Translations under genes and position numbers: made by a program | Origin: Sulfurospirillum sp. | GTDB lineage: Bacteria; Campylobacterota; Campylobacteria; Campylobacterales; Sulfurospirillaceae | Assembly (NCBI GenBank): GCA_014859685.1 | Contig: JACUTU010000013.1 | Coordinates: forward strand, 1 to 33,077 | Direction: 5' to 3' | DNA: 33,077 bases | Shown here: positions 10,457 to 16,137 of the stretch, piece by piece | Layout: every line of letters begins with the position of its first letter | Position numbering within the stretch: position 1 is the stretch's first letter | Notes under the pieces: model-generated | The model's database searches: none | The model's input: only the letters and a program-made list of their open reading frames with translations | Told to the model about the DNA's origin: nothing

Positions 10457-11496
10457 GAAAGATTTTTTTAGTTATATGTTTTATGTTTATAAGCATTCAA
10501 GCACAAGAGCAAAAAGCTTCACTTGTGCAAACAGCACCTATCACCAAAGAACGCGTAAAGACTCTGAAAAACTTTGTAGGCAATGTTGTGTTTGAACAAA
10601 GTACAAACATAGCATCACAAAGTTTTGGAGCAATTGTGCAATTGCAATTCAAACTAGCAGATAGAGTCAAAAAAGATCAAATCCTTGCAAAAGTGGATGA
10701 TACTATTATTAAAGCACAGATAATTGCGGCAAAAGCAGTACTTGATGAAACGCTTGTAAATTTAGAAAAAGCACACAAAGATTTAAAGAGATATACAACA
10801 TTGTATGAGCAAAAAGCAATTTCGCAAACAGCATTTGATGATTATTATTTTCTTGCTAAAAGTTTAGAGAGCAAGGTGGCAACACAAAAAGCAAATCTCA
10901 ATACTCTTGAAGTTGAGCAAGCCAAAAAAATTATATATGCACCTTTTGATGGCATTGTTGTGGCAAAACATATAGAACTTGGAGATTGGGCTGCTCAAGG
11001 AACACAAGTAGCACAGGTTATCAATCCAAAATCAGCAGAAGTTGAAGTCAATCTTCCTCAAGATGTTGCAAGTATCTTACATGTAAACCAAGTGATTCGC
11101 GTAAAAATTGCCCAAGATGTTTATGAGGGATTTGTGCAAGCGATTATTCCAAAAGGTGATATGAAAACGAGAACTTTTCCCGTTCGTATAGCTTTTAAAA
11201 AACCTTTTACAACTATTTATGAGGGAATGAGCGCTGAAGTGATGGTAGAAACAATGCAAGAGGAAGATTCTTTTGTGGTGATGCGTGATGCGATTATCCA
11301 AAAATTTGGACAAAATGTAATCTTTATCAACAATAATAACACCGCTTTGATGGTTCCTGTGCAAATTATTGGGTATCTGAAAAACAAAGTTGCGATAAGC
11401 GCTCAAGGACTCCAAGAAGGAACACCTGTGGTGGTTAAGGGCAATGAACGGATATTTCCAAATATGCCTTTGCAAGATATTGGAGGTAAACAATAA
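10453..11496 (+). CDS. RND efflux periplasmic adaptor (membrane fusion protein)
   Basis: This is a 347-aa HlyD/AcrA-type adaptor that bridges the inner-membrane pump and the TolC-like channel. A signal peptide (RKIFLVICFMFISIQA) precedes a biotinyl-lipoyl-like half domain (IVQLQFKLADRVKKDQILAKVDDT). A coiled-coil hairpin (about 75-155) and the second lipoyl half (IIYAPFDGIVVAKHIELGDW) follow. Beta-barrel and membrane-proximal domains complete it. No lipobox cysteine is seen, so it is probably a soluble periplasmic form. Its last base is the first base of the pump start codon. Confidence 0.92.
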   Translation: MRKIFLVICFMFISIQAQEQKASLVQTAPITKERVKTLKNFVGNVVFEQSTNIASQSFGAIVQLQFKLADRVKKDQILAKVDDTIIKAQIIAAKAVLDETLVNLEKAHKDLKRYTTLYEQKAISQTAFDDYYFLAKSLESKVATQKANLNTLEVEQAKKIIYAPFDGIVVAKHIELGDWAAQGTQVAQVINPKSAEVEVNLPQDVASILHVNQVIRVKIAQDVYEGFVQAIIPKGDMKTRTFPVRIAFKKPFTTIYEGMSAEVMVETMQEEDSFVVMRDAIIQKFGQNVIFINNNNTALMVPVQIIGYLKNKVAISAQGLQEGTPVVVKGNERIFPNMPLQDIGGKQ

Positions 11497-14400
11497 TGGA
11501 TATCATAGGCTATTCAATAAAGAAGCCTGTTAGCATTATAGTTGGGGTTATTTTACTTATACTTTTTGGATTGTTAGCACTTTCAAAACTTCCATACCAA
11601 CTCACTCCAACAGTGACACAGCCTGAACTTTCGGTAAAAACTTTTTGGCCAGGTGCCACCCCTTATGAAGTAGAGAGCAATATAATCCAAGAGCAAGAAG
11701 AAGCACTCAAAAACACAACAGGATTAGTAAAATACGAGAGTACATCAAGCGATAATGTGGGAACAATTGTGCTTACATTTAAAACAGGAACGGATATCAA
11801 TCAAGCAAAACTTGATGTTTCCAATAAACTCAATGAGGTAAGTTCGTATCCACAAAATGTTGAAAAACCCGTCATAAGTTCAAGTGGTGATAATTCAAGT
11901 CCCGTTATTTGGAGCGTTTTACAAACCAAAGATGGCAATGAAAAACATATCTATAAGTATCTTACTTTTTTCAATGATGAGATAAAAGAGAGAATCCAGC
12001 GAGTTCCTGGTGTTGCTTCTTTGTTTGTGATAGGCGGACAAGAAGATGAGGTACATGTAAAAGTTGATGTGGCAAAACTTGCAACTTACCATTTGAGTAT
12101 CGATACTGTTGTGCAGGTTTTACAACATGAAAACCAAAATGTCGCTGCTGGTAGTATGGATGTTGATAGAAGAACTTATAGAATCCGCACAACAGGTGAA
12201 TTTAAAGATCTACAAAGCATTAGAGATGTTGTGATTCAAAGTGATGGAGCTAGGAGAATTTTTCTCAAAGACATCGCAACTGTGAGTTTTGGAAATGAAA
12301 AAGCCACTGGTATTACGATGTTTTTGGGTGTGCCGAGTATCATTGTTGGTGTACGTGCACAAAGTGATACAAATATAGTGGAGATGACTGATGAAGTAGA
12401 AAAAGTCTACAAAGAGCTCAATGCTGGAGCTTTGAGCGAAAAAAATCTTGAGCTCAAGTGGTTATATGATCAAAGACCTTACATTATGGGATCCATTGAT
12501 CTTGTGAAACAAAATATCTTTATAGGCGCGATTTTGGCAATAATTGTTTTGCTTATATTTTTGCGATCAGTTCGAGCAACCGCAGTAGTTGCTATCGCAA
12601 TTCCTATAAGTATCATTGCTACCTTTATCATCCTAGCTATCATGAACAGAAGCATCAATACAATATCTTTGGCTGGTATCTCATTTGCCGTGGGAATGCT
12701 CGTTGATAGTGCAATTGTTGTGCTAGAAAATATAGACAGGCACAAGCAGATGGGCAAAGCATTTTTTAAAGCAGCTTATGATGGTGCAAGTGAAGTTTGG
12801 GGAGCATTAATCGCATCTGCATTGACAACGATCGCTGTCTTCTTGCCGATAGTATTTTTAGAAGATGAAGCTGGACAACTTTTTAAAGATATAGCCATCG
12901 CAGTCACAGGAGCAGTTTCTTTTTCTCTTTTTGTTTCTATTTCGGTTATTCCTATGCTTTGGACACTTGTAATGGCACGCAAAAAAGATACTAAGATATC
13001 ACAGCCACAAACAAAAAGCTTTCTTGTGCGTTTGGGCGAACAATTTGTAGATTTATTTATGTTTTTTATCAATAAGTCTCTCACAAATGTTTTTACCCGT
13101 TTGGTGACGGTTGTCTCTCTTATTAGTTTTGCGGTTTTGAGTGTTTATATCTTTTTTCCTAAGATGGAATACCTCCCTCAAGGTAACCAAAATTTGATTT
13201 TCAACATCCTCATCCCGCCTCCTGGTTTATCGCTTCAGGAGAGAACAAATATCGGAGAGTCTTTGTTTAAAAAAATGGAAAAACATATTAACAAAGAAGT
13301 AGACGGTATTCCACCTATCAACAGATTATTTTTTGGCTCTTTTGGAGATTTTATGATCTTAGGCGGCACTAGCGCATATGAGGAAAGAGCGAGAGAATTG
13401 ATACCAGCTTTTATCCCCGTTGTAAACTCTTTTCCTGGTGTTTTTGGTATCACTTTACAAAGAGGTGTATTTGAAAATGGCATTGGTGAAGGTCGTAGTG
13501 TAGATATTGATCTTAGTGGCGAGAGTATAGAAAAGTTGGCAAATGTCGGTGGAGCTTATTTTCAAGCATTGAAGCAAGCGCTTCCCGCTGTGCAGATTAG
13601 ACCAGTTCCGTCGATCGAACTTTTGTATCAAGAGGGAAGATTTTATCCAAAAAGAGAGGCTTTGCGAGCAGTTGGTTTGGATGCAAATTCTTTGGGAATT
13701 AGTCTTGATGTCCTGATGGATGGTAGAAAAATTGGAGATTTTAAGCAAGATGGTAAGAAAAAAATCGACCTTAAACTAATGGGTTTGAACGAGGATGCAA
13801 CAACGCCAGAAGCGCTTGAAAAGATGCTACTTGCCACTCCAAGCGGCGGGCTTGTTCCTATCTCTACTTTGGCGCAACTAGAAAAAACAACTGGTATTTC
13901 AGAGATTAGACATTTAGGGGGCAAAAGAACAATCACGCTCAAAGTTACCCCGCCTGAATCGATGACAATCCAAGAAATGATGGCGTTGATTGATATGCAA
14001 ATCACACCAGCCATTAAAAAAACAGGTTTATTGCAAGAAGTGAGCGTAGGACTTTCGGGAACAGCGGATAAACTCAAAGAAACAATCAGTGCGATGTCGC
14101 TCAATATCATTTTAGCGCTTATCATAACTTATTTGCTGATGAGTGCTTTGTTTAGCAATTTTATATATCCACTTATCATCATGGTAACCGTGCCTATTGC
14201 TGCTGCTGGAGGGTTTATAGGCTTAAAACTCACCGATACTTTCATAGCTATGCAACCTATGGATGTACTCACGATGTTAGGTTTTGTTATCCTTATCGGT
14301 GTTGTTGTAAATAACGCTATTTTGATAGTATATCAAGCTTTGAACAATATAAGAATCTATAAATTAGAGTATAAAAAAGCAGTTCTTGAAGCTACAAAAA

Positions 14401-14642
14401 GCCGTTTGCGACCTATTTTTATGAGTTCACTTACCTCAATTTTTGGTATGTTGCCATTGGTGCTTTTTCCAGGCCCAGGGAGTGAATTTTATAGAGGTTT
14501 GGGCAGTGTTATAACTGGTGGTTTGGCACTTTCAACATTTTTTACTATCTTTATGATCCCATCATTATTGCTATTTGTAGTGCATTTTGAAAAAAAAGGA
14601 TCACAAAAACAAGACGGTAAACAAGTTGTACCAGAGTTATAA
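11496..14642 (+). CDS. RND multidrug efflux permease (AcrB/HAE1-like)
   Basis: This is a 1048-aa inner-membrane proton antiporter with the usual 12 helices and two large periplasmic loops. Typical motifs are LPYQLTPTVTQPELSVKTFWPGA near the start, VVAIAIPISIIATFIIL and RLRPIFMSSLTSIFGMLPL. In the proton-relay helix TM4 the AcrB Asp-Asp pair is D404-S405 (GMLVDSAIVVLEN). In TM10 the AcrB lysine is replaced by N939 (VVVNNAILIV). This Asp/Asn type is known from other RND branches but differs from AcrB. Substrates cannot be read from the sequence. The C-terminus overlaps the next gene's longest start by 56 nt. Confidence 0.95.
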   Translation: MDIIGYSIKKPVSIIVGVILLILFGLLALSKLPYQLTPTVTQPELSVKTFWPGATPYEVESNIIQEQEEALKNTTGLVKYESTSSDNVGTIVLTFKTGTDINQAKLDVSNKLNEVSSYPQNVEKPVISSSGDNSSPVIWSVLQTKDGNEKHIYKYLTFFNDEIKERIQRVPGVASLFVIGGQEDEVHVKVDVAKLATYHLSIDTVVQVLQHENQNVAAGSMDVDRRTYRIRTTGEFKDLQSIRDVVIQSDGARRIFLKDIATVSFGNEKATGITMFLGVPSIIVGVRAQSDTNIVEMTDEVEKVYKELNAGALSEKNLELKWLYDQRPYIMGSIDLVKQNIFIGAILAIIVLLIFLRSVRATAVVAIAIPISIIATFIILAIMNRSINTISLAGISFAVGMLVDSAIVVLENIDRHKQMGKAFFKAAYDGASEVWGALIASALTTIAVFLPIVFLEDEAGQLFKDIAIAVTGAVSFSLFVSISVIPMLWTLVMARKKDTKISQPQTKSFLVRLGEQFVDLFMFFINKSLTNVFTRLVTVVSLISFAVLSVYIFFPKMEYLPQGNQNLIFNILIPPPGLSLQERTNIGESLFKKMEKHINKEVDGIPPINRLFFGSFGDFMILGGTSAYEERARELIPAFIPVVNSFPGVFGITLQRGVFENGIGEGRSVDIDLSGESIEKLANVGGAYFQALKQALPAVQIRPVPSIELLYQEGRFYPKREALRAVGLDANSLGISLDVLMDGRKIGDFKQDGKKKIDLKLMGLNEDATTPEALEKMLLATPSGGLVPISTLAQLEKTTGISEIRHLGGKRTITLKVTPPESMTIQEMMALIDMQITPAIKKTGLLQEVSVGLSGTADKLKETISAMSLNIILALIITYLLMSALFSNFIYPLIIMVTVPIAAAGGFIGLKLTDTFIAMQPMDVLTMLGFVILIGVVVNNAILIVYQALNNIRIYKLEYKKAVLEATKSRLRPIFMSSLTSIFGMLPLVLFPGPGSEFYRGLGSVITGGLALSTFFTIFMIPSLLLFVVHFEKKGSQKQDGKQVVPEL

Positions 14643-16137
14643 GTCTTACTTGCAAAAAGAGTATGGCTTCGAGCTATACTCCATAGCTGTAGATTTGGAA
14701 TTTGGCTGTCCAAATAGAGATAGTGATGGCCAAGGTGGTTGTACTTTTTGTCCTAGCGATGGGGCAAGGGCGGTGCAGATCAAAGATGCAAAAAGCCTTG
14801 AAGAACAGATACAAAAAGGGATCGCTTTTGCGAAAAAAAGATATAAAGCAAAGCATTTTATGCTTTATATTCAAGCTTATAGCGGTACCTTTGCAACTTT
14901 ACGACAACAAAAAGAAGCTTATGAAAAACTCCTCAATCTTTATGATTTTAAAGCTATAGCTATTGGAACAAGACCTGATTGTTTAGGCGATGAAACGCTT
15001 GCATATCTCCATGATTTGAACCAAAAGATTTCCCTACATGTAGAGCTTGGTGTGCAAACACTCAACGACAAAACACTTTCGCATATTAACCGTGGACATG
15101 ATGCAAAAGCGAGTGTAGATGCCATCAAAAAACTCAAGGCATATGGTCTAAAAGTATTTGCACATATAATAGTTGGTTTGCCCCATGAAAATAGAGCGGA
15201 TTGGAGTCACACTGTGCAAACGCTCATAGCGCTCAAAGTTTCTGGTATCAAGTTTCACAATTTACACATCATCAAAAATACAGCCCTACATGTAGCGTTC
15301 CAAAAAGAACCGTGGAAAATTTTCGATGCGTATGAATACGCCGAAGAGCTGATCCATCTTTTAAGAATGCTACCTTGCGATATGGTTGTGCAACGGCTCT
15401 CAAGCGACACGCCAAAAAATGATCTTATTGCACCGATTTGGCACATGCAAAAAGGACAATTTGCAAACTATATCCATCAAACAATGCACTATCGTTTTGG
15501 TAAAAGCAGTGTAGATGAGCGGTTTTGGAGTGAGGAATATGGGGAGTATTATTATCCAAAAAGCGGTGCAATCAAACAAGCTAGAGAGCTTTTTATAGCC
15601 CATTCACAATTAGAAAAAAGGCTTACATGTAAGGATGTTTATCTTTTAGATATAGGATTTGGTTTTGGAGTTAATTCGCTTGAAGCTTTGAAAATAACAT
15701 CTAAAAACACCTTACATGTAAGCGCGCTTGATCAAGATGCACGCATAGCAAAAAACTTGCCCAAAAGCATAGATTTTATCGTAGGTGACATAAGATACAC
15801 GCTGAAAAAACTAGATAAAAAATATGATGTGATATTTTTAGATCCATTTTGTGAGGATAAAAATGCCTCAATGCTGAGCGTCGAAGTGTTTATGATGCTT
15901 AAAAAACTTCTCAAAAAAGATGGCGTGATGATAACTTCCACAAAAGAAGAATCCGTAAGAGTAGGATGTAGTCACGCTGGTTTTAAAAGCGTGGTAGTAA
16001 GTCATGGCGACATAAAAGGCTTAGTAGTCACACATGCAGATGAGCCTCTAAATGGCGAGCCTTATCATGACCCGCATCTAGTATGGAGCGATAAAATGAT
16101 AGCGGCATATAGAAATCAATTAAAAAAAGGGAGTTAG
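14587..16137 (+). CDS. Fusion: YhcC/YtqA-type radical SAM protein + MnmC-like methyltransferase
   Basis: The product has 516 aa in two parts. Residues 1 to about 305 match the TIGR01212 (YhcC/YtqA) radical SAM family: cluster cysteines C41, C52 and C55 in FGCPNRDSDGQGGCTFC, then YIQAYSGTFA, GTRPDCL and ELGVQTLNDKTL. Residues from about 312 match the MnmC methyltransferase domain (DUF752): YGEYYYPKSGAIKQARELFI, SAM loop DIGFGFGVNS (355-364), FLDPFCEDKNASML (D419) and VRVGCSHAGF. MnmC makes the final methyl group of mnm5U in tRNA wobble uridines, so a role in tRNA U34 modification is inferred. The start is uncertain: TTG at 14587 inside the pump gene, or TTG at 14626. It carries four TACATGTA sites. 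Confidence 0.88.
   Translation: MKKKDHKNKTVNKLYQSYKSYLQKEYGFELYSIAVDLEFGCPNRDSDGQGGCTFCPSDGARAVQIKDAKSLEEQIQKGIAFAKKRYKAKHFMLYIQAYSGTFATLRQQKEAYEKLLNLYDFKAIAIGTRPDCLGDETLAYLHDLNQKISLHVELGVQTLNDKTLSHINRGHDAKASVDAIKKLKAYGLKVFAHIIVGLPHENRADWSHTVQTLIALKVSGIKFHNLHIIKNTALHVAFQKEPWKIFDAYEYAEELIHLLRMLPCDMVVQRLSSDTPKNDLIAPIWHMQKGQFANYIHQTMHYRFGKSSVDERFWSEEYGEYYYPKSGAIKQARELFIAHSQLEKRLTCKDVYLLDIGFGFGVNSLEALKITSKNTLHVSALDQDARIAKNLPKSIDFIVGDIRYTLKKLDKKYDVIFLDPFCEDKNASMLSVEVFMMLKKLLKKDGVMITSTKEESVRVGCSHAGFKSVVVSHGDIKGLVVTHADEPLNGEPYHDPHLVWSDKMIAAYRNQLKKGS

Follow-up and report, generated by a model that had tools for sequence, protein, structure and literature searches.

The 33,077-nucleotide stretch of Sulfurospirillum sp. 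DNA analysed here (hereafter, the window) contains, at positions 14587–16137 of the forward strand, a single 516-codon open reading frame that encodes a radical SAM domain fused to an MnmC2-type methyltransferase domain. The product is probably an MnmL-MnmC2 enzyme that resembles the bifunctional MnmC but dispenses with its oxidase domain. We consider it reasonably likely that this protein is a bifunctional wobble-uridine enzyme that converts cmnm5U to nm5U and then to mnm5U, an analogue of MnmC that is probably independent of oxygen. The role of the TIGR01212 radical SAM family in the modification of U34 is already known; what is added here is a third subclade of this family, the group of fused methyltransferases and the accompanying pattern of gene content.

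The gene and its two domains

An earlier note, made from the sequence of the window, had read this frame as a radical SAM domain joined to a DUF752 methyltransferase domain, and both assignments are confirmed by matches to TIGR01212 and PF05430 above the respective cut-offs; the three cysteines C41, C52 and C55 and the motifs DIGFGFGVNS, FLDPFCEDKNASML and VRVGCSHAGF that it pointed out are all found in the protein. The first codon of the frame is a TTG (14587) located inside the end of the preceding frame for an RND efflux transporter (11496–14642, forward strand), which is context and has no part in the function. The alignment of homologues suggests that translation may really begin closer to the second in-frame TTG (14626). 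The TTG start codon and the overlap with the upstream gene could suggest that two adjacent genes had been annotated or assembled as one, but 25 Campylobacterota genomes and ten genomes from other phyla, complete chromosomes included, share the continuous two-domain frame, which excludes chance and assembly error; this artefact, to which we would assign practically no probability, is therefore ruled out by the homologues. The neighbouring genes were read at six fused loci, with no shared tRNA-related partner among them.

The radical SAM domain spans residues 14–303 (14626–15495, forward strand) and consists of the PF04055 core and the PF16199 Radical_SAM C-terminal domain, with a score of 271.6 bits against TIGR01212 (cut-off 180). 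The codons for the [4Fe-4S] cysteines C41 (14707), C52 (14740) and C55 (14749) form a Cx10Cx2C motif at 14707–14751 (forward strand), recognized by conservation: these cysteines are nearly invariant among 59 TIGR01212 proteins and are present in every fused protein of the alignment that covers the region, one sequence (L119) being cut off before it. Altogether, 24 residues, the cluster cysteines included, are conserved at the level of at least 95% over the fused, YtqA and YhcC clades, which, at the level of sequence, favours the same chemistry in all three; positions 123, 225 and 273 are clade-specific among the TIGR01212 clades. Against the Elp3 model TIGR01211, the protein scores 62.3 bits, far under the cut-off of 350, and the profile search yielded no match to a GNAT domain. 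A linker (residues 304–317; 15496–15537, forward strand), delimited by the alignments and by a dip in the confidence of the predicted structure, connects the two halves; it is short here, most homologues having a longer one with a QGDL...DGS motif.

The MnmC2 domain (DUF752, Methyltransf_30) occupies approximately residues 318–483 (15538–16035, forward strand), as indicated by PF05430, NF033855 and the fold. Residues 393–467 match PF05430 with 54.1 bits (cut-off 22). Against the MnmC2 equivalog NF033855, this half of the protein scores 81.1 bits, below the cut-off of 136, and stand-alone Campylobacterota MnmC2 proteins likewise fall under it (108 and 112 bits). All 16 aligned fused proteins matched MnmC2 in the profile search.

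The active-site residues of MnmC2, including the role of Asp178, are defined by crystal structures (PMC3648344), and the fused proteins retain the equivalents of F67, G68, G70, E101 (as Asp or Glu), D178 and F180. The SAM-binding motif GFGFG (residues 357–361; 15655–15669, forward strand) corresponds to G66–G70 of Escherichia coli MnmC, and F358, G359 and G361 of its FGxG loop are invariant in all 31 fused proteins. The catalytic motif DPF (residues 419–421; 15841–15849, forward strand) contains the counterparts of Asp178 (D419, 30 of 31 fused proteins) and Phe180 (F421, 31 of 31), and the equivalent of Glu101, D382 here, is Asp or Glu in 31 of 31. Neither the MnmM domain PF06962 nor the MnmC1 FAD oxidase TIGR03197 has a match in the fusion protein. 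When each domain was searched alone, as the earlier note had proposed, the C-terminal half proved closest to MnmC2 by sequence, active-site residues and fold, with no better match to a methyltransferase family other than MnmC. Two fused copies are possibly decaying: in L086:96-1691, Asn replaces the catalytic Asp (FLNPF), and L040:1501-2919, the fusion of genome G347, ends early, with the loss of a C-terminal segment.

The AlphaFold2 model of the fusion protein, obtained with an alignment of fused homologues as input, has a mean pLDDT of 89.3 and a pTM of 0.87, the pLDDT dipping to 72–77 at residues 301–330, that is, at the linker. In Foldseek searches of the PDB, the top hit of the radical SAM half is Elp3 (8pty, E = 1.3e-12), and the methyltransferase half retrieves the Aquifex MnmC2 (3vyw, E = 8.5e-11) along with 2qy6 (E = 2.6e-7), being about 20% identical to solved MnmC2 in the fold alignment. 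The protein is thus predicted to combine an Elp3-like half with an MnmC2-like half. Elp3 is a radical SAM enzyme of the wobble uridine that acts at C5.

Distribution and phylogeny of the fusion

The earlier note had suggested mapping the fusion across the Campylobacterota. Among 397 Campylobacterota genomes at least 90% complete, homologues defined by at least 52% identity over a single frame of about 480–600 amino acids were identified in 25, mostly in the family of the window: 19 of the 22 Sulfurospirillum-family genomes, five Arcobacteraceae (family f7) and one Sulfurovum (family f4). The other Campylobacterota TIGR01212 proteins among the matches listed are all stand-alone, about 320 amino acids long and 32–39% identical. 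A scan of GTDB r220, with one genome per species, detected the two-domain frame in ten genomes from Lentisphaerota, Kiritimatiellota, Verrucomicrobiota and a Margulisbacterium. The MnmL-MnmC2 fusion is, accordingly, a real protein family.

In the phylogenetic tree of TIGR01212, the fused radical SAM domains, together with a few unfused relatives from Kiritimatiellota, Lentisphaerota and Paceibacterota, form a third subclade (SH-aLRT 99, stem length 0.74), apart from the YtqA of Bacilli and from the YhcC group, which includes E. coli YhcC and the stand-alone Campylobacterota copies. The description of this half as a YhcC/YtqA radical SAM protein in the earlier note therefore holds at the level of the TIGR01212 family, but the domain is not a YtqA orthologue, belonging instead to a separate, deep subclade. 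The Campylobacterota fusions comprise one group nested among the other fused radical SAM domains. The fused methyltransferases likewise form a single group in their tree, distinct from both the bifunctional MnmC and the stand-alone Campylobacterota MnmC2, so that one fusion event followed by transfer between phyla would be the simplest history of these sequences.

Unfused radical SAM proteins of the third subclade occur in seven genomes (L114, L116, L117, L120, L121, L123 and L125) that have no match to PF05430, MnmC1 or MnmM. At two of these loci (L114:3287-4894 and L123:3274-4882), the third-subclade radical SAM protein is associated with QueH, the epoxyqueuosine reductase: in a Kiritimatiellia genome, a QueH domain (PF02677, 194 bits) is fused to its N-terminus, and in another genome, QueH is encoded directly upstream. 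The association with QueH is a second type of link between the third TIGR01212 subclade and enzymes of wobble-base modification.

Gene content, proposed reaction and alternatives

The genome from which the window comes encodes MnmE, MnmG and MnmA, and the fusion is its only PF05430 gene, hence its only MnmC2 candidate. MnmM (PF06962) is absent from this genome and from the 80 Campylobacterota genomes searched for it. The observation in the earlier note that the oxidase half of MnmC is missing was borne out both for the protein and for the genome, where no match to MnmC1 (TIGR03197) exceeds the cut-off; the only weak one, at 59 bits, was rejected as MnmC1 because it is an L-2-hydroxyglutarate oxidase. 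With this oxidase discounted, none of the 19 Sulfurospirillum-family genomes with the fusion has an MnmC1 match that reaches the threshold. Two unfused genomes of the family (G061 and G330, genus g3) have an MnmC1-like oxidase and no match to PF05430 or radical SAM, and in these, the modification may end at nm5U. Genome G364 has the fusion and no MnmC1; four congeners without the fusion possess MnmC1. In all ten fused genomes outside Campylobacterota, the fusion is the sole PF05430 gene, with no MnmC1 above the cut-off and no MnmM, these absences carrying less weight because several of the genomes are draft MAGs. Five fused Arcobacteraceae have kept MnmC1 and have two PF05430 genes. The fusion and MnmC1 are thus mutually exclusive in two lineages, with the five Arcobacteraceae as the exception.

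The window genome additionally encodes a stand-alone YhcC-type TIGR01212 paralogue (G000:C20:181478-182413; L001:1501-2436), with a score of 287.6 bits, directly after an apparent purF. We considered the fusion as a plain replacement of YhcC and rejected this notion given that both copies coexist in one genome. Elsewhere, in three genomes of family f3, genus g54 (G231, G319 and G354), there is a stand-alone TIGR01212 protein, with no PF05430, MnmC1 or MnmM among the matches listed, so that here the radical enzyme occurs without a known partner methyltransferase.

We infer the substrate and the order of the steps as follows. MnmEG, which installs cmnm5 or nm5 at U34 (PMC9976899), would first place cmnm5 (or nm5) on the tRNA. 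The N-terminal half of the fusion would then employ its [4Fe-4S] cluster and a 5'-deoxyadenosyl radical to strip the carboxymethyl group from cmnm5(s2)U34, yielding nm5(s2)U34, after which the C-terminal half would use a second SAM to methylate the amine, with D419 as the base, to produce mnm5(s2)U34. MnmC performs both steps with a flavin oxidase (PMC3648344). In the fusion, the radical SAM half would stand in for this FAD oxidase, such that the conversion would probably proceed without oxygen. An oxygen-independent route is plausible, since radical SAM chemistry uses no oxygen and the lineages that carry the fusion but not MnmC1 are largely anaerobic or microaerophilic. The model builds on what the analysis shows directly, namely the domains, the retained active-site residues, the folds, the distribution and the genes present in the window genome. 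Several observations speak against this MnmL-MnmC2 model: by sequence, the fused radical SAM domain falls outside the YtqA clade and the methyltransferase half under the equivalog cut-off; in addition, the Arcobacteraceae combine the fusion with MnmC1, and there is no conserved tRNA-linked neighbour at the six loci read. Furthermore, MnmC2 may methylate nm5U that is formed directly by MnmEG with ammonium (PMC3648344), so that a cmnm5 step does not follow from the methyltransferase half by itself. The retained YhcC-type paralogue may duplicate the radical step or share it with the fusion: were YhcC an MnmL, the radical half of the fusion would be superfluous or serve a different set of tRNAs, and were the MnmL activity to lie in the fusion, YhcC would have another role.

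Conceivably, the methyltransferase half produces mnm5U from nm5U that comes from MnmEG or the YhcC-type paralogue, and the fused radical SAM half acts on this uridine in another way, for example, by a further or alternative modification of U34. We regard this as unlikely; in its favour are the long, well-supported branch that parts the fused clade from YtqA and YhcC (SH-aLRT 99, length 0.74), the clade-specific positions 123, 225 and 273, the YhcC-type copy retained in the window genome, the MnmC1 and second PF05430 gene kept by the Arcobacteraceae, and the seven genomes with unfused members of the clade and no PF05430 gene. A separate reaction is harder to reconcile with the finding that, in most lineages, MnmC1 is lacking precisely in those genomes whose sole MnmC2 is the fusion, and with the 24 residues, the cluster cysteines among them, that are common to the three clades. 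That the fused radical SAM domain represents a third functional type of TIGR01212, with its own U34 reaction unlike that of MnmL and with nm5U supplied by the YhcC-type paralogue or by MnmEG with ammonium, strikes us as rather unlikely. That the protein acts elsewhere than at U34, on a different tRNA position, on rRNA or on a small molecule, its MnmC2-like domain having been co-opted for another N- or O-methylation, might be suspected from the score of the methyltransferase half, well under the MnmC2 equivalog cut-off, and from its approximately 20% identity to solved MnmC2. The catalytic Asp and the SAM-packing Phe are, nevertheless, retained in 30–31 of 31 fused proteins, the fusion is the sole MnmC2 candidate where the MnmEGA set is complete, and each half independently points to U34 enzymes (MnmC2 for one, MnmL and Elp3 for the other), all of which renders such a target improbable.

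Under the preferred MnmL-MnmC2 reading, both candidate active sites reside in a single chain, and the cmnm5-to-nm5-to-mnm5 sequence would be testable with one purified protein; the fusion also suggests how anaerobes could complete wobble modification without a flavin oxidase. The existence of the third TIGR01212 subclade implies, at the same time, that the MnmL function should not be simply copied onto its members.

Relationship to known systems

The study of Jaroch et al. 2024 is said to have found that MnmL is genetically required for mnm5s2U. Its abstract reportedly mentions 'fusion proteins', so that fusions of this type may have been described before. The proposal of the earlier note that this radical SAM family acts in tRNA U34 modification is supported and had already been published: NCBIfam release 20 gives TIGR01212 the title 'tRNA modification radical SAM protein MnmL/YtqA', and a 2025 review (PMC12548931) has MnmL as an enzyme that can take the place of MnmC, with reference to Jaroch et al., J Bacteriol 2024. 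The proximity of ytqA and ytqB, which the note had stated for Bacillus subtilis, is seen as a gene pair in Anoxybacillus, Listeria and Enterococcus, the Listeria partner being MnmM (246 bits). A search of the tRNA literature on E. coli YhcC yielded nothing relevant.

Among the closest known systems is MnmL (YtqA) of B. subtilis and Streptococcus, which shares with the fusion the TIGR01212 equivalog, the cluster motif, the Radical_SAM_C domain and the tie to a methyltransferase of the U34 amine. MnmL, however, is a separate protein encoded in an operon with MnmM, an unrelated methyltransferase, whereas the fusion carries an MnmC2-type domain within its own chain, and its radical SAM domain groups in a subclade other than the YtqA of Bacilli, for which the MnmL function was shown. 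YhcC, in E. coli and as the stand-alone Campylobacterota copy, is a member of the same TIGR01212 family but is only about 33–38% identical, is unfused and belongs to a separate clade. Elp3, of the Elongator complex, provides the closest solved structures to the radical SAM half, which here comes without an acetyltransferase domain. The stand-alone MnmC2 (DUF752) of Aquifex aeolicus (3VYW) and of most Campylobacterota families has the same Methyltransf_30 fold and active-site residues; in contrast to the stand-alone Campylobacterota proteins, the domain described here is part of a fusion and falls into a group of its own in the tree. The bifunctional MnmC of E. coli (MnmC2-MnmC1) unites in one polypeptide an MnmC2-type methyltransferase and an enzyme for the preceding conversion of cmnm5 to nm5, as the fusion probably does, but in the fusion, a radical SAM domain takes the place of the oxidase, at the N-terminus rather than the C-terminus, and there is no FAD domain.
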